From positions 2,723,501 through 2,787,500 of the forward strand of contig NZ_CP013118.1 in assembly GCF_001443605.1 (NCBI RefSeq): a stretch of DNA of 64,000 nt. Direction: 5' to 3'. The notes under the pieces are model-generated. The model saw only the letters and a program-made list of their open reading frames with translations. It was not told the DNA's origin and ran no database searches. The DNA is from Salinivirga cyanobacteriivorans (GTDB taxonomy: Bacteria > Bacteroidota > Bacteroidia > Bacteroidales > Salinivirgaceae). Position 1 is the stretch's first letter, and the number at the start of each line of letters is the position of its first letter. Shown in pieces: positions 1,699 through 29,170 of this stretch. A program made the translations under genes and the position numbers.

Positions 1699-2868
1699 AT
1701 GAACAACAACAGATACGCCCGCAGAGGAGTTTCAGCAAGCAAAGAGGATGTACACAAAGCAATTTCTGCCCTTGACAAGGGGATTTACCCCAATGCTTTT
1801 TGCAAAGTAATTCCTGATGTTTTAGCCGGCGATCCCGAATATTGCAATGTAATGCATGCTGACGGAGCTGGAACCAAATCATCTTTAGCCTATATGTACT
1901 GGAAAGAAACAGGCGACCTGTCGGTTTGGAAAGGCATTGCCCAGGATGCAATCGTTATGAATATTGATGATTTACTTTGCGTAGGTATAACAGATAATAT
2001 TTTGGTATCTTCGACCATCGGGCGAAATAAAAACCTGATACCCGGTGAGGTAATCAGTGCCATCATCAATGGTACCGATGAGGTATTGCAGCAGCTTACA
2101 TCCTTAGGTGTAAACACTGTGTTTACCGGTGGTGAAACAGCCGATGTTGGAGATTTGGTACGTACCGTAATTGTAGATTCAACTGTTACAGCCAGGGCAC
2201 GCCGCGACCAGATTATCACCAACGAACAAATTCAGGATGGAGATGTGATTGTAGGACTTAGCTCAACTGGTCAGGCAACATACGAGAATGCATATAACGG
2301 CGGCATGGGAAGTAACGGATTAACCTCGGCCCGCCATGATGTTTTTGCGCATTACCTGGCAAAGAGGTATCCAGAAAGTTTTGACCCGGCAGTGGATGAG
2401 TCCCTGGTATATTCAGGAACAAAAAAGCTTACAGATGCAATAGAAGACCTCGAGCTCGATGCCGGAAAATTAGTGTTGTCGCCAACTAGAACTTATGCAC
2501 CTGTTATAAGCAAAATTTTGGACCAATATCGCTCAAAAGTACATGGAATGATACATTGTAGCGGTGGAGCACAGACCAAAGTGCTTAATTTTGTTCAGAA
2601 TTTGCATGTGGTAAAAGACAATATGTTTCCAACCCCACCACTTTTCAGGTTAATACAACAGGAGTCGGAAACCGATTGGCAGGAAATGTACAAAGTATTT
2701 AATATGGGACATCGCTTTGAGCTCTATGTCCCTGCCGATATAGCAAGTGATATTATAGATATTGCAGCAACTTTTAACATTGAAGCACGTAAAGTGGGAT
2801 ATGTCCAATCAGCAGACAAAAAGAAATTGACTATAGATAGTGAACACGGAAAATTTGAATATCATTAA
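1699..2868 (+). CDS. purM: Phosphoribosylformylglycinamidine cyclo-ligase (AIR synthetase)
   Basis: PurM catalyses ATP-dependent ring closure of FGAM to AIR, step 5 of de novo purine synthesis, in the cytoplasm. Family hallmarks visible are DGAGTKSSLAY near residue 55, the acidic segment VMNIDDLLCVG and FTGGETADVGD near residue 142. The length of 389 aa fits the longer Bacteroidota form; the common bacterial PurM is nearer 345 aa. An ATG start follows a candidate promoter at 1671. The gene leads a tight run with prfA and pyrF, an order I recall as common in Bacteroidota. A different PurM-like synthase is possible but less likely. Confidence 0.88.
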   Translation: MNNNRYARRGVSASKEDVHKAISALDKGIYPNAFCKVIPDVLAGDPEYCNVMHADGAGTKSSLAYMYWKETGDLSVWKGIAQDAIVMNIDDLLCVGITDNILVSSTIGRNKNLIPGEVISAIINGTDEVLQQLTSLGVNTVFTGGETADVGDLVRTVIVDSTVTARARRDQIITNEQIQDGDVIVGLSSTGQATYENAYNGGMGSNGLTSARHDVFAHYLAKRYPESFDPAVDESLVYSGTKKLTDAIEDLELDAGKLVLSPTRTYAPVISKILDQYRSKVHGMIHCSGGAQTKVLNFVQNLHVVKDNMFPTPPLFRLIQQESETDWQEMYKVFNMGHRFELYVPADIASDIIDIAATFNIEARKVGYVQSADKKKLTIDSEHGKFEYH

Positions 2869-2880
2869 TTGGAGGAAAAA

Positions 2881-3957
2881 ATGAGTAATTTACTGGAAAA
2901 ACTGGAGGGTATAAAGATACGATTTGAGGAGGTTGCAGAATTAATTACAGATCCGGAAGTGATTGCCGATGTAAAGCGTTATGTAAAACTCAATAAAGAA
3001 TATAAGAACCTGGAACCCATCATCGAGACAGGTAACGAATATAAACTTGTGCTCGAAAACATCGAAACCTCAAAAGAAATGCTCAGCGGAGAAGACGAGG
3101 AGATGAAAGAGATGGCCAAGATGGAGCTCGAGGAGCTTGAAGCAAAAAAAGATGAGTTAGAAGAAAAGATAAAGATCTTGCTGGTACCAAAAGACCCTGA
3201 GGATGAGAAGAATGTGGTGCTTGAAATTCGCGCCGGAACAGGCGGTGATGAAGCCAGTATTTTTGCCGGAGACCTCTTCCGGATGTACAACAAATACTGT
3301 GAAAATAAAGGCTGGAAATTTCAAATGACCAGCAATACCGAAGGTACAGCCGGCGGGTTTAAAGAAGTTATCGCCAATATATCAGGGAATGGTGTGTACG
3401 GTATAATGAAGTATGAATCGGGTGTACACCGCGTACAACGTGTTCCACAAACCGAAACCCAGGGTCGGGTGCACACTTCAGCAGCAACAGTTGCAGTATT
3501 ACCTGAAGCTGAGGAGTTCGATCTGGAAATAAATCCGAATGACATTCGAAAAGATACTTATTGTAGTTCGGGACCGGGTGGACAATCGGTAAACACAACC
3601 TATTCGGCCATTCGACTTACACACATTCCGAGCAATATTGTAGTGACCTGCCAGGATGAAAAATCGCAGCTTAAAAACCTGGATAAGGCTATGAAAGAAT
3701 TACGTACACGTCTCTACAATTTGGAATACCAGAAACGCATGGACGAAATTGCCTCCAAGCGCAAAACAATGGTCTCATCGGGCGATCGCTCTGCAAAAAT
3801 CAGAACCTATAATTTCCCACAGGGTAGAGTTACAGATCACCGTATTAACCTCACCATGTATAACCTGCAGGCAGTAATGAATGGTGAAATAGATGAGATA
3901 ATTGAGAAGTTGCAGACGGCTGAGAATGCTGAAAAACTCAAAGAAAGTAATTTATAA
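2881..3957 (+). CDS. prfA: Peptide chain release factor 1
   Basis: RF1 recognises UAA and UAG and triggers peptidyl-tRNA hydrolysis on the ribosome. The catalytic loop [12 protein letters not shown] carries GGQ near residue 231. The codon-recognition tripeptide lies in [10 protein letters not shown] (PxT type, as RF1 rather than the SPF of RF2). The length of 358 aa is normal. I chose the ATG at 2881 because GGAGG sits 5 nt before it, unusually good for this genome. An in-frame TTG at 2869 would place that Shine-Dalgarno inside the coding region. The gene begins 12 nt after purM and ends 3 nt before pyrF, so the three are probably co-transcribed. Confidence 0.96.
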
Positions 3958-22632: not shown

Positions 22633-23376
22633 ATGGAACAAAAAAGTGATTTTATTTTTGGTATACGTCCCGTAGAGGAGGCCATCAAAAGCGGCCAGCA
22701 TTGTGATAAGGTATTGATAAGAAAAGGCATGGGAGGAGATACCATAGATGCCATAAAAGAGATGATGCGCAACCATCGTATTCCGCTTCAGCAGGTACCT
22801 GACGCAAAGCTAAACCGCATTACACGTAAGAACCATCAGGGTATTATTGCATTGATGTCACCTGTCCCTTTTCAGCAAATTGAGGACGTATTAATGAATG
22901 TTTATGACAAGGGCGAAGATCCGTTTTTTTTAATGCTTGATGAGGTAACTGACGTTCGAAATTTTGGTGCCATGGTGCGTACAGCAGAGTGTGCCGCAGT
23001 GCATGGTGTAATTATTCCCCAAAAAGGTTCGGTGCGTATTGGAGGTGACGCTGTAAAAACATCTGCAGGAGCGTTGTTTAACCTGCCGGTATGCCGTACC
23101 GCAAGTTTGAAAAAAACTGCTTCGTACCTCAAAGATAGCGGCCTGAAACTGGTCGCAGCTACCGAAAAAACCGATGATATGTATTTTAACCAGCCATTAG
23201 ATGGACCGGCCTTGCTTATTATGGGTGCTGAAGATAAAGGTATAAGTCAGGGTTTGCTTGATATGGCTGATGTAAAAGCTGCACTGCCGGTACAGGGTAA
23301 AATATCATCATTAAATGTGTCAAATGCTGCTGCAGTGCTTATGTATGAGATGCTTAGGCAACGAATGAAAAAGTGA
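22633..23376 (+). CDS. rlmB: 23S rRNA 2'-O-ribose methyltransferase RlmB (TrmH/SpoU family)
   Basis: RlmB methylates the 2'-O of G2251 in the 23S rRNA P-loop. The N-terminal substrate-binding domain begins FIFGIRPVEEAIKSGQ. The SPOUT knot motifs are FLMLDEVTDVRNFGAMVRTA (motif 1), LLIMGAEDKGISQGLL (motif 2) and ISSLNVSNAAAVLMYEML (motif 3). At 247 aa it is of normal length. I chose the ATG at 22633; an in-frame GTG at 22594 would overlap the upstream gene. The stop overlaps the GTG start of the next gene by four nucleotides, which suggests translational coupling. Confidence 0.92.
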   Translation: MEQKSDFIFGIRPVEEAIKSGQHCDKVLIRKGMGGDTIDAIKEMMRNHRIPLQQVPDAKLNRITRKNHQGIIALMSPVPFQQIEDVLMNVYDKGEDPFFLMLDEVTDVRNFGAMVRTAECAAVHGVIIPQKGSVRIGGDAVKTSAGALFNLPVCRTASLKKTASYLKDSGLKLVAATEKTDDMYFNQPLDGPALLIMGAEDKGISQGLLDMADVKAALPVQGKISSLNVSNAAAVLMYEMLRQRMKK

Positions 23377-26300
23377 AAAACATTGCGCTTAAAATATCGC
23401 TTATTTTATGCATGCTGGTACTGATTTCGGATACACTTTTTGGCCAGTTTTATAACGGTCATCGTATGCGTTTTGGTAAGAACCGTGTGCAATACCGCGA
23501 TTTTTACTGGCAACATTACGACTTTCAGCGTTATAAAGTTTATTTTCATCAGGGTGGAGATAATACAGCGCGGTATGTGGGGTTGCGAGCACGCGACATT
23601 TTAACAGAGATGGAATATCGACTCGACTACCGACTCGATGGACAGGTAAATTTCATTGTGTATAACGACTTGTTAGATTTCAGACAAAGCAATATTGGTC
23701 TGGTTTCAGGCAATGATCAGTACAATATAGGCGGTACCACAACTATTGCTAATAATAAAGTCATGATTTATAATTATGGCACACACCGGCAATTGGACAG
23801 GCAGGTGCGGCGGGCTTCAGCCGAATTGTTGATTAATGAGATTCTTGTGGGAAGCCGCTTTTCCGACAGATTGGCAAATTCGGCGTTGATATCTTACCCG
23901 GAGTGGTTTATTAAAGGACTTATTGCTTACTATGGAAATGAATTTGCAGCATCAGAGCAGCAAAGTATTAAAGATGGTCTGCTCAATGGTAAGTACAAAA
24001 AAATGCAATGGCTTACTGGCAAGGATGCTGAACTTGCCGGGTTTTCTTTTTGGACCTATGTGGCAATGAATTATGGCGAGCCGGCTTTAAGAGATATCAT
24101 GTATCTCTCCAGGGTGAGTAAAAATATCAATAATGCCATTGTTTTTGTAACAGGCGTACCTTTTCGATACTTGCTGCGCGAATGGGCAGAGTATTCAACC
24201 TATCGTTATGAGCAGGAGGGAACTGGAGTGCCCGGCGCTGAGGCAAAAAAAATAAAAAAGCGAACCAAAAAAAAGGCGCAATACAGCAACCTGGTCTTTT
24301 CTCCCGATGAGCGATATTTTGCCTGGAGTAGAAATGAATCCGGAAAAGTGAAAATTTATATCCAGAATGCAGCTAGCGGCAAGCGACAGAAAGTGTTTGC
24401 TTATGGACATAAATTACCCCAGAAAATTGACCGAAAATACCCTGTTGTGCGTTGGCACCCAAAACTCAATATGTTATCGTGGGTGTATGAGCATGAGCAG
24501 CAAATTAAACTCTGTTTTTATGATGTGAATTCAACTGAGATTAATGCACGCAACATACAGTATATTAATCGTATGTTGGACTATGATTTTAACAGTGATG
24601 GTACGCAAATCGTTTTTTCAGGTATTCATGATGGCAAAACCGATTTATTTACCCTGAATCTGGCATCGAATGAGCAGAACCGGCTCACCGATGATTTGCC
24701 CGACGAGCTTAATCCAAAGTTCACGCCTGAAGGCAACATTATTTTCAGTAGTAATCGTAACAAACCAACAGGAGACACCTTGCAAAGTCATTTGGATTTA
24801 TACCTGACAAATGCCCGGCATTTTGAACCTGTAAAAGTTGTTGCAACTCCGGGTAACCAAACAAAGCCAATAGTGCTGGGGAAGGATTATTATTTATATC
24901 TGAATGATCAGAATGGCATACAGAATCGCTTTGTGGCCAATTACGACAGTGCTATTCAATTTGTTGATACAGCCATTCATTATCGGTTTTTTACTGAGCA
25001 AAAACCACTTACTGATTTAAGGTATGGTTTAATTGAGCATGATGTAGCCAATTCCAGGTCTGCATTTGCAGATCTTCATTTTTATAACCAACGCTATCAT
25101 CTGCTGCAAAAGCCATTCGATTTGACTCCCCTGCAAAAAACGTTAAACATTACAGAGCAGAAAGCTTTTTTTACCACCCGCCGGAAGTTTTACAATAAAC
25201 AAATTGAACGGTTGAAGGAACAACAACGACGCAACGACAGCCTGATTGATATAAATAATTATACTTTTGAATTTGAAAAAAAGCAAAAGTCTGATCAGCG
25301 ATGGCCCGATTTTGAGGCTGATAGTCTTTGGGTTTTAAAGCGCAAGCTTTATTTTACAACTTTTTACACCAACTATACTGTTAACCAGGTCGATTTTAGT
25401 CAGCTTAACCGCAGTTACCAGGTTTATACGGGAGGGGGCGTATTTTTTAATCCCGGGTTTAATGTACTGACTAAATTTGGTGCAGCTGATTTATTTGAGG
25501 ATTATAAGTTGACTGCGGGTTTCAGGCTTGCTGCAAATTTCACAGGAAATGAATACCTGATCAGCATCGAGAATCTTAAATCACGGCTCGACAAGCAGCT
25601 TATCCTCCATCGAATGGGAAGTGAAGAGTATACCGATAATGAGCTTAAACGATCCTATTCTTATCAAACCATGCTTGTGCTCAAATACCCCTTTTCGCAG
25701 GTGTCATCGGTACGTCTTACCGGTAGGTTACGGCTCGACCAAATTGTGTACCCCGCCATCAATAACGAAACTTTAGTAAAACCTGACGACTTCAGGTTGT
25801 GGGGCGGCATGTTGGCCGAATATGTGTATGACAATACCCGGTCTCTGGGATTGAATTTGTACAGTGGAACCCGGGCAAAAGCCTTTTTTGAGCAATATTC
25901 CAGGCTTGAACAAAATACAGGCGATCATATGTTTGTGGTGGGTACAGATGTGCGTCACTATATTCAAATACACCGGCAACTCATTTGGGCCAACAGGTTT
26001 GCAGCATCGTCCAGTTTCGGGAATGCGCTACTGATATATTATCTGGGAGGTGTAGACAACTGGATGTCGGTTAGCGGAAACGGTTATTTCGATCAGACCA
26101 TTCCTGTTGATAAAAGTAAAAACTGGGCTTTTCAGACGGTTGCCACTAATATGCGCGGGTTTCAGCAAAATATCAGAAATGGAAATAGTTTTGCACTGAT
26201 CAATTCAGAATTGCGCTGGCCCGTAATCAAGTATGTTTTTAATCGGCCCTTAAATAGTGATTTACTGGATAATTTTATGATAGCCGGCTTTTTTGATGTG

Positions 26301-26543
26301 GGTAGCGCCTGGTATGGTTGGGACATTACAAATACCGATAATTTTTACCGCTATGATTATATTGAGAACGGACCGGTAAGTGTGCGTATTGATAAGAGAC
26401 GTGATCCATTAGTGGCCGGTTACGGATTTGGTTTTCGCACACGTGTTTTTGGATATTATTTGCGTTTCGATTGGGCATGGGGAATTGAGAATAAAAAAAT
26501 TCTGGATAGGCAGTTTTATTTTTCAATTAACCTCGACTTTTAA
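23373..26543 (+). CDS. TolB-like propeller / outer-membrane barrel protein with degenerate peptidase-MA domain
   Basis: A 1056-aa secreted envelope protein starting at GTG within the rlmB stop codon (GTGA). After a signal peptide (residues 1-24) comes a peptidase-MA-like region (~30-290). It keeps SYPEWFIKGLIAYYGNEF but has ASAELLINEILVG where active relatives have HExxH, so zinc catalysis is unlikely. A TolB-like propeller follows (~300-520, e.g. VFSPDERYFAWSRNESGKVK). The last ~400 residues alternate in barrel fashion and end in FYFSINLDF, a typical terminal beta-strand. A basic patch KKIKKRTKKKAQ joins the first two parts. Probable role: outer-membrane assembly or export scaffold, function unknown. 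Confidence 0.75.
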   Translation: MKNIALKISLILCMLVLISDTLFGQFYNGHRMRFGKNRVQYRDFYWQHYDFQRYKVYFHQGGDNTARYVGLRARDILTEMEYRLDYRLDGQVNFIVYNDLLDFRQSNIGLVSGNDQYNIGGTTTIANNKVMIYNYGTHRQLDRQVRRASAELLINEILVGSRFSDRLANSALISYPEWFIKGLIAYYGNEFAASEQQSIKDGLLNGKYKKMQWLTGKDAELAGFSFWTYVAMNYGEPALRDIMYLSRVSKNINNAIVFVTGVPFRYLLREWAEYSTYRYEQEGTGVPGAEAKKIKKRTKKKAQYSNLVFSPDERYFAWSRNESGKVKIYIQNAASGKRQKVFAYGHKLPQKIDRKYPVVRWHPKLNMLSWVYEHEQQIKLCFYDVNSTEINARNIQYINRMLDYDFNSDGTQIVFSGIHDGKTDLFTLNLASNEQNRLTDDLPDELNPKFTPEGNIIFSSNRNKPTGDTLQSHLDLYLTNARHFEPVKVVATPGNQTKPIVLGKDYYLYLNDQNGIQNRFVANYDSAIQFVDTAIHYRFFTEQKPLTDLRYGLIEHDVANSRSAFADLHFYNQRYHLLQKPFDLTPLQKTLNITEQKAFFTTRRKFYNKQIERLKEQQRRNDSLIDINNYTFEFEKKQKSDQRWPDFEADSLWVLKRKLYFTTFYTNYTVNQVDFSQLNRSYQVYTGGGVFFNPGFNVLTKFGAADLFEDYKLTAGFRLAANFTGNEYLISIENLKSRLDKQLILHRMGSEEYTDNELKRSYSYQTMLVLKYPFSQVSSVRLTGRLRLDQIVYPAINNETLVKPDDFRLWGGMLAEYVYDNTRSLGLNLYSGTRAKAFFEQYSRLEQNTGDHMFVVGTDVRHYIQIHRQLIWANRFAASSSFGNALLIYYLGGVDNWMSVSGNGYFDQTIPVDKSKNWAFQTVATNMRGFQQNIRNGNSFALINSELRWPVIKYVFNRPLNSDLLDNFMIAGFFDVGSAWYGWDITNTDNFYRYDYIENGPVSVRIDKRRDPLVAGYGFGFRTRVFGYYLRFDWAWGIENKKILDRQFYFSINLDF

Positions 26544-26608: not shown

Positions 26609-26977
26609 ATGCGGATGAACGAAATAATATTGCTTCTAATTGTTGGCCTGCTTGCAGGCTTCGTGGGTGGTATGATGGGTGTTGGTGGTGGTGTGGTAGT
26701 TATACCCGCACTTGTGTTTATCATGGGATTTTCGCAGCATCAGGCGCAGGGTACAGCCCTGGCTTTTATGCTGCCGCCAATTGGCCTGATGGCTGCCTGG
26801 AACTACTATAAAGCGGGTTATGTCAACGTTAAGTACGCACTGTTGCTTATGGTCGCCTTTGTTGTGGGAGCCTGGGTAGGTTCCATGATTTCGGTGCAGC
26901 TGCCCGATAAAGTATTAAAGAAAATATTTGGTGTAATGTTGCTATATGTCGCTTACAGAATGATTTTTAAAAGCTGA
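26609..26977 (+). CDS. Half-size TauE/SafE-family membrane protein
   Basis: 122 aa with four hydrophobic helices. The TauE/SafE signature GLLAGFVGGMMGVGGGVVVI is present once (residues ~14-33), followed by IPALVFIMGFSQHQAQGTALA. Classical TauE exporters are ~250 aa with this unit twice. A single-repeat protein would need to dimerise to transport. Members move sulfite, sulfoacetate or other organic sulfur anions across the inner membrane; the substrate here is unknown. It is 65 nt after the TolB-like gene and is followed by the IS element. No partner half is nearby. Confidence 0.8.
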   Translation: MRMNEIILLLIVGLLAGFVGGMMGVGGGVVVIPALVFIMGFSQHQAQGTALAFMLPPIGLMAAWNYYKAGYVNVKYALLLMVAFVVGAWVGSMISVQLPDKVLKKIFGVMLLYVAYRMIFKS

Positions 26978-27026
26978 GCTGATGTATTATTGTTTCATTC
27001 TTTGTAACTTGCAACATAAAACTATT

Positions 27027-27036
27027 ATAAAATGAT
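27027..27036. repeat. Left copy of the 10-bp target duplication (ATAAAATGAT)
   Basis: It is identical to 28005-28014 and directly abuts the left inverted repeat. Two bases can be assigned either to the inverted repeat or to the duplication, so the true target duplication may be 8 bp, the usual IS1595 size. Confidence 0.85.
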
Positions 27037-28004
27037 AGAGGTCAGTAGATAAATTCATATAATATATTATCTTTGATACCAATAAAATCAATGATTTAAT
27101 GGAATTATTCAAAGGACAAAACCTCATAGAGTTTGCTACACGCTTTAATTCGGATGAAAAGTGTATTGAATATTTAGCTCATATTAAATGGCAAGATGGA
27201 TTTAGATGTGTTAAATGTGGTCATACCGGAAGTCAAGTAAGAAAGAATCATTCAAGAACGTGTAATAAGTGTAATCATACTGAATCAGCAACAGCAAATA
27301 CACTATTCCACAAAGTTAAATTTGGTGTTCAAAAGGCTTTTTTTATTTGCTTTGAAATGGCAACTACAACCAAAAGTTTATCTGCAAGTTATGTTGGAGA
27401 ACGCTTTGGGGTTACTGAGAAAACAGCTCGACTGTTTATGCATAAAGTACGGGAAGCGATGAAGTCAAGCGGTAATAACCCAATGAGTGGAAATGTACAT
27501 ATTGATGAGTTTGTAATTGGTGGAAAGGAAGAGGGAAAAGTTGGACGTAGTTACCATATTAAGAAAAAGAAGGTTATATGTGCTGTAGAGCTTACTGATG
27601 ATGGTAAGGTTAAACGCATGTACTCGATGAAAATAGACAACTACTCATCGAAAGAGCTAGAAAAAATGTTCGATGCGCATATTTCTCAACAGGCAAAGGT
27701 AACAACAGATCAATGGAAGGGCTACCGTCCACTCATGTCAAGCTATGATATAAGACAAATCGAGAGTGACAGAGGTTCCAACTTCAAGGCTTTGCACACA
27801 ATGATTCATCAAGTTAAATCTTGGATAAGAACCACTTACTCATGGGTTAGCACTCACAATATCAACAGGTATCTTGACGAGTTTTGCTACCGACTTAATC
27901 GTTCTCAAATGAAAAAGAATATTTTCAATAATTTGGTACGCAGGATGGTTATTGCTGATAAAGTAAAGCAAGCAGATTTAATATGCAGTTAAATACTGAC
28001 CTCT
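27037..28004 (+). mobile_element. IS1595-type insertion sequence (968 bp)
   Basis: Inverted ends AGAGGTCAGTA (27037-27047) and TACTGACCTCT (27994-28004) bound a single transposase gene. A direct duplication flanks both sides. The element is complete, with an intact transposase, so it may still be active. The duplication includes the native ATG of the downstream M20 gene. Confidence 0.9.
27099..27992 (+). CDS. IS1595-family (ISXO2-like) transposase
   Basis: 297-aa DDE-type transposase. An N-terminal zinc ribbon uses Cys37/Cys40 (CVKC) and Cys55/Cys58 (CNKC). The ISXO2-like catalytic domain follows: NVHIDEFVIGGKEEGKVG supplies the first Asp, VTTDQWKGYRPL the second, and the C-terminal HNINRYLDEFCYRLNRSQ the final catalytic region typical of the family. 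Length and order match full IS1595-group transposases, and no frameshift is seen. Its last codons overlap an ATG (27983) that is in frame with the downstream M20 gene. Confidence 0.95.
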   Translation: MELFKGQNLIEFATRFNSDEKCIEYLAHIKWQDGFRCVKCGHTGSQVRKNHSRTCNKCNHTESATANTLFHKVKFGVQKAFFICFEMATTTKSLSASYVGERFGVTEKTARLFMHKVREAMKSSGNNPMSGNVHIDEFVIGGKEEGKVGRSYHIKKKKVICAVELTDDGKVKRMYSMKIDNYSSKELEKMFDAHISQQAKVTTDQWKGYRPLMSSYDIRQIESDRGSNFKALHTMIHQVKSWIRTTYSWVSTHNINRYLDEFCYRLNRSQMKKNIFNNLVRRMVIADKVKQADLICS

Positions 28005-28014
28005 ATAAAATGAT
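28005..28014. repeat. Right copy of the target duplication, containing the M20 start codon
   Basis: ATAAAATGAT repeats 27027-27036. The ATG at 28010-28012 inside it is the native start of the amidohydrolase gene. Confidence 0.85.
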
Positions 28015-29170
28015 TTCTAAAGCCCAAATTACCGAACAATTACCTGAAATACGCACCTGGTATGAGCACTTGCATGCCCATCCTGAACCTTCATTTCAGG
28101 AGAAAGAAACAGCTGCCTATATAGCTTCCGGGCTGAAAAAAATGGGATTGGAGGTACATCGCTTACCCCAAAACGCTGTGATGGGATATTTGCAGGCAAC
28201 CAATGCCATTGGCACCATTGGTTTAAGAGCAGAGTTAGATGCATTACCATTACATGAACAAACCAACGTAAATTATATTTCACAAAATACAGGCACTATG
28301 CACGCTTGCGGACACGATCTGCATATGGCCTGTGCCCTGGGTGCAGCAAAATTACTCTCTGCACATAAAGCAAACCTGAAACACAATGTGCTTTTTGTAT
28401 TCCAGCATGCCGAAGAAAAAATACCGGGTGGTGCTGTGGCTGTAATTGCTTCAGATTTTTTTAAAAGTCATAAGCCCGATGTAATGCTGGCTATGCATTC
28501 GTTCCCCGATTTGAAAGCCGGTGAGGTTGGATTTCGGAGTGGCCCATACATGGCTTCGGGTGATGAGGTTGATGTGCATATAAAAGGTCCGGGCGGGCAC
28601 GCGGCAATGCCACACAAAACTGTAGACACAGTGCTTACCGCAGGGCAGGTGCTGGTAGCCCTTCAGCAAATACAATCGCGTTTTATACCGACCGAAATTC
28701 CTTCGGTACTCACCTTTGGAAATATTTGTGCCGAAAGTGTAATGAATATTATTCCAAGGGAAGTATTGCTTGAAGGAACTTTCCGTACGATGAACGAAAA
28801 GTGGCGTAAAAAAGCGCTAAAACAAATCAAACAAATTGTACAGAATACAGCCAAAGCCACTGGGGCAGATGCCGAAACTGTTATTCGGCCGGGTTACCCT
28901 ACCATCGAAAACGATAAAAACGTTACAGCTAAAATTGAAAATATTGCCACTAAATTACTGGGGTCGAAAAATATTCATCTACTGCCTTTGCGCATGACTA
29001 CTGATGATTTTGGTTATTATGCGCAAAAAATTCCATCTGCATATTTCAGACTGGGTGTAGCCGATTCAAATGGGCGCAGTGCGGGTTTGCACACACCGGA
29101 ATTTTTACCAGACCCCAAAGCGCTTGAAACCGGGGTCAGTCTACTGGTGCAAATTATTCAAAATTATTAG
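28010..29170 (+). CDS. M20-family amidohydrolase (N-acyl-amino-acid hydrolase type)
   Basis: A 386-aa metal-dependent hydrolase of the M20D/amidohydrolase group, which cleaves N-acyl or hippurate-type amides. MHACGHDLHMACALGAAKLL near residue 97 gives the metal-binding Cys/His pair, FQHAEEKIPGGA the catalytic Glu, and TDDFGYYAQKIPSAYFRLGV and LHTPEF the C-terminal ligands. No signal peptide, so cytoplasmic. The native start is the ATG at 28010. An ATG at 27983 inside the IS would add MQLNTDLYK and overlaps the transposase end, so translation could be coupled. The native upstream region is now 968 bp away. Confidence 0.9.
   Translation: MISKAQITEQLPEIRTWYEHLHAHPEPSFQEKETAAYIASGLKKMGLEVHRLPQNAVMGYLQATNAIGTIGLRAELDALPLHEQTNVNYISQNTGTMHACGHDLHMACALGAAKLLSAHKANLKHNVLFVFQHAEEKIPGGAVAVIASDFFKSHKPDVMLAMHSFPDLKAGEVGFRSGPYMASGDEVDVHIKGPGGHAAMPHKTVDTVLTAGQVLVALQQIQSRFIPTEIPSVLTFGNICAESVMNIIPREVLLEGTFRTMNEKWRKKALKQIKQIVQNTAKATGADAETVIRPGYPTIENDKNVTAKIENIATKLLGSKNIHLLPLRMTTDDFGYYAQKIPSAYFRLGVADSNGRSAGLHTPEFLPDPKALETGVSLLVQIIQNY

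Follow-up and report, generated by a model that had tools for sequence, protein, structure and literature searches.

An IS1595-family element at the start codon of an M20 amidohydrolase gene in Salinivirga cyanobacteriivorans: a probable operon split with the coding sequence intact

The window analysed here, a 64,000-nucleotide stretch of the Salinivirga cyanobacteriivorans genome (NZ_CP013118.1, positions 2,723,501 to 2,787,500), contains an M20 amidohydrolase gene whose start codon lies within the target duplication of an IS1595-family element. Taken as a whole, the locus is probably best read as a recent IS1595 insertion that split a gene cluster at the M20 start, leaving M20 intact and now transcribed behind the transposase. 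The 970-bp element inserted, probably recently, where the second gene of a conserved OMP/TolB-like - TSUP - M20 cluster meets the third, and its 8-bp duplication happens to take in the M20 start codon. Transcription of M20 would now come from the element's own promoter, from read-through of the upstream genes, or from both, and translation would begin at the native ATG or, in part, at an in-frame ATG that overlaps the transposase stop. The features concerned are the following:

23373-26543, forward strand: outer-membrane/TolB-like beta-propeller gene (OMP), first gene of the conserved cluster
26609-26977, forward strand: small TauE/TSUP gene, 122 aa, upstream neighbour of M20
27028-27035, no strand: left TAAAATGA copy, holding the displaced native ATG (27032-27034), from comparison of genomic copies
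27036-28005, forward strand: IS1595-family insertion sequence, with borders from eight near-identical genomic copies and Pfam and NCBIfam matches
27036-27047, forward strand: left terminal inverted repeat, exact over its outer 12 bp and imperfect towards the interior
27068-27075, forward strand: candidate Bacteroidota -7 box for the transposase, TATCTTTG, fitting TANNTTTG
27099-27992, forward strand: transposase gene, 297 aa, zinc ribbon and DDE_Tnp_IS1595, from the ORF list, Pfam and NCBIfam
27983-27985, forward strand: ATG that overlaps the transposase stop and shares the M20 frame, to whose product it would add MQLNTDLYK
27994-28005, reverse strand: right terminal inverted repeat, exact over 12 bp
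28006-28013, no strand: right TAAAATGA copy, holding the working M20 ATG (28010-28012), from comparison of genomic copies
28010-29170, forward strand: M20 amidohydrolase gene, 386 aa, intact, from the native ATG

The element is 970 bp long, runs from TAGAGG to CCTCTA, and contains a single ORF of 297 codons between its repeats, which is the transposase. The DDE domain of this protein matches PF12762 (E 5.9e-17, with profile positions 2-153 of 153 covered), the N-terminal zinc ribbon matches PF12760 (28.6 bits against a cut-off of 25.4), and the NCBIfam model NF033547 is matched at 161.3 bits (cut-off 75). By these matches the element belongs to the IS1595 family, as the original prediction had proposed. 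The tips of IS1595-family elements typically start with GG. In the window element, the outermost bases are instead TAGAGG; the GG sits four bases in (27040-27041), and the borders derived from the copies place TAGA outside it. GG tips are stated for Merlin in PMC8101967, which also gives 8 bp as the usual target duplication of the family and places a zinc ribbon at the N terminus in all IS1595 groups except IS1016. With the family, the window element shares a single transposase gene combining zinc ribbon and DDE domain, terminal inverted repeats, and 8-bp duplications.

The genome, a single contig of 4,812,386 bases, contains nine copies of the element. Eight are near-identical, with at most two differences from the window copy over a 966-bp core, and one of these (L003) is identical to the window copy across that core; the ninth (L009) has diverged and is 87% identical. 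Outside this genome, the nearest relatives seen have 68% (Persicobacter plasmids) and 66% (L121) transposase protein identity. A perfect duplication and a core identical to that of L003 point to a probably recent insertion, and with a copy this young the intactness of M20 is uninformative about its expression.

A repeat search of the window found TATAAAATGAT as an 11-bp exact direct repeat (27026-27036 and 28004-28014, spacing 978), with long inverted repeats just inside it. The window alone could not show the element's borders, which were fixed by lining up the nine genomic copies. The target duplication is thereby 8 bp, TAAAATGA, at 27028-27035 and 28006-28013, and the additional repeat bases belong to the element ends (a T at 27036 on the left, a T and an A at 28004-28005 on the right). 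The 10-bp duplication of the original prediction is thus a real direct repeat, but its size is that of the 8-bp duplication plus matching element-end bases. The native ATG still falls inside the duplication after this correction, and the proposal that the ancestral site can be rebuilt by joining the flanks is sound, as any joint within the repeat gives an identical empty site. The displaced left ATG now begins a six-codon frame, MIEVSR, that ends at 27052. Near the 3' end of the TSUP gene, 18 bp (26954-26971) resemble the M20 start (28004-28021, 83%), probably by chance.

The same duplication length is found elsewhere. Perfect 8-bp duplications, different at each site and at the same distance from GAGG...CCTC, flank seven of the eight near-identical copies, and in the remaining one (L005) an 8-bp duplication fits if one T is missing at the left end. 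The diverged copy L009 has no exact duplication in flanks read by eye. Among five relatives with 66-68% protein identity, 8-bp duplications were seen by eye in four (L121, L150, L151 and L152); none was seen by eye in L153, where the right end of another copy stands at the left. L153, from the Persicobacter plasmid CP012852.1, carries two related elements head to tail with approximately 8 bp between their ends.

The M20 coding sequence itself is intact, given that the congener start codons align to 28010 and that the joined leader offers no upstream start. In the two congeners, L040 (67% identical) and L041 (61%), the only in-frame upstream ATG aligns exactly with 28010, and in the joined flanks the frame before the M20 ATG is open for four codons, with no start among them. 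Comparison of these sequences therefore shows that M20 lost no coding residue to the insertion, and the original claim that the right copy keeps the start of an untouched coding sequence agrees with both congeners, which begin M20 at the same codon. More distant relatives have a few extra N-terminal residues in M20, as might be expected if the native start lay elsewhere and the element had removed or added coding sequence; against the congener alignments and the four open codons of the leader, this is hardly credible.

What the insertion displaced is the 5' side of the gene. In the joined flanks, the native leader from the TSUP stop to the M20 ATG is 54 bp. The OMP gene upstream of TSUP encodes 1056 aa with weak PD40/TolB propeller matches, and its label is a reading of its sequence. 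Neighborhoods were compared at 109 loci with an M20 match, using flanks of 1.5 or 4 kb, some of which are cut by contig ends. TSUP lies directly upstream of M20 in 12 of the 109 (L012, L015, L020, L028, L041, L043, L052-L055, L057 and L105), or in 11 if L012 and L041, which appear to be one locus, are counted once; L110 was left out of this count, as its TSUP match is far off and on the opposite strand. At six more loci (L016, L018, L021, L023, L031 and L032) the OMP gene is directly upstream of M20 and no TSUP was found. The remaining loci have neither TSUP nor OMP upstream, and many of them represent distant M20 relatives from other phyla. The gaps between TSUP and M20 range from -62 to +66 nt and are mostly overlapping or short (the -62 is counted from the first in-frame ATG, and a later ATG is possible), and those between OMP and M20 in the six loci without TSUP range from 1 to 24 nt.

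Because relatives pack OMP/TolB-like, TSUP and M20 genes this tightly, the insertion most likely split an operon. The -7 consensus looked for as the mark of a Bacteroidota promoter is TANNTTTG, which PMC9330008 gives for Bacteroides fragilis. The 54-bp native leader contains no exact match to this box, and a single one-mismatch form, TATTATTG, occurs at 26985. The left flank, described in the original prediction as the old promoter side, thus probably corresponds to a junction within an operon instead of a promoter, since the upstream genes of relatives overlap or abut M20 and the leader lacks an exact -7 box. The element probably split an operon rather than cutting M20 from a private promoter. 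In the closest relative (L040/L011), M20 has neither TSUP nor OMP upstream, with a contig end nearby, and L040 has its own box before M20, TACCTTTG; judging by this arrangement, M20 is not always operonic.

The anatomy of the element bears on how M20 may now be expressed. Element and gene have the same orientation. The exact TANNTTTG box stands 31 nt ahead of the transposase ATG in all nine copies; the pattern occurs 38 times on the forward strand of the window, and an exact match would fall by chance within the 31 nt upstream of a given ATG with a probability of approximately 0.02. A sigma-70 promoter scan, ill-suited to Bacteroidota, gave two sites, fewer than the shuffle mean of 5.1, and a simple consensus scan of 26900-28200 for terminator-like sites came up empty. 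A gap of 17 nt separates the transposase stop, whose last base is 27992, from the M20 ATG at 28010. The shared orientation, the candidate promoter, the lack of a terminator in the scan and the short gap favor the second of the two outcomes originally suggested for M20, silent or driven from the IS. On the simplest reading, M20 would be a cistron transcribed behind the transposase.

The opposite outcome, effective silencing of M20, is unlikely; it would come about through the loss of the gene's operon context, insufficient strength of the transposase promoter, and masking of the start codon by paired terminal repeats in read-through RNA. In the predicted fold of a read-through RNA, 27036-27047 pairs with 27994-28005, just before the M20 ATG, with probabilities of 0.65-1.0, although pairing over approximately 950 nt is a weak prediction and was made with no control. 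Mean pairing over the border region 27990-28016 is predicted as 0.69 in this RNA, versus 0.45 for a transcript beginning within the element. Such pairing of the terminal repeats could lower M20 translation in read-through RNA. An exact promoter box in the direction of M20 and a region in which no terminator was found speak against silencing. A different possibility is that the insertion was selected for altering M20 expression, as an adaptive mobile promoter of the kind known for cfiA in Bacteroides fragilis. The position and orientation of the element would fit, and two other copies lie close to the beginnings of genes, L003 at 12 bp from an ORF start and L009 at 19 bp upstream of a WYL-regulator ORF. 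Four of the nine copies (L002, L004, L006 and L007) merely interrupt ORFs, however, so that landing looks indiscriminate, and an adaptive origin is quite improbable. In three of the nine (L001, L003 and L009) an ORF start is less than 20 bp away, and two (L005 and L008) fit neither description. A preference for start codons is not claimed, three of nine being too few and the comparison having been made after the data were seen; the landing on the M20 start codon is an accident.

It was also considered whether the right end of the element carries a portable start, in which the ATG over the transposase stop opens a frame that continues through the terminal repeat. In that case, in-frame genes behind the element would owe their translation to coupling with the transposase, and their products would carry an invariant leader peptide (MQLNTDL...). 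This is very doubtful, and as a selected feature it was rejected as unproven: the frame enters a downstream ORF in three of the eight near-identical copies (L001, L002 and L006), close to the expected one in three. In L009 the overlapping ATG is followed at once by TAG, while L121 and L150-L153 have an ATG at the same place; this shared position may simply be dictated by the terminal repeat together with a conserved Cys codon.

Several of the other landing sites may be described individually. The near-identical copy at 1510-2479 of L002 breaks an ORF of approximately 506 codons that has a type IX secretion sorting domain at the end of its right part. In L006, the copy is on the minus strand of the locus and breaks a long ORF whose right part gives Toprim/DnaG-like matches. 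The L007 copy breaks an ORF that weakly matches an IS1634 transposase, well below cut-off, possibly as an element inside an element. The diverged L009 copy, the one ahead of the WYL-domain regulator ORF, occupies 2490-3389.

The reading preferred here, with M20 intact and transcribed behind the transposase of a recent insertion, describes what is otherwise ordinary genome traffic. It does offer a clean natural example in which an insertion separates an operonic gene from its 5' side and leaves the protein untouched, and strains with and without the element would show the fate of Bacteroidota genes placed under transposase read-through. Genes that come to lie behind an inserted element are well known in Bacteroidota, and IS-activated genes including cfiA and nim in Bacteroides fragilis are tabulated in PMC9330008. 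As in the cfiA and nim cases, the element lies just upstream of the gene, with a possible host-type promoter reading in. The M20 locus differs in that the sole promoter candidate is the transposase's own, approximately 0.9 kb before M20; unlike cfiA and nim, M20 was probably expressed before the insertion.
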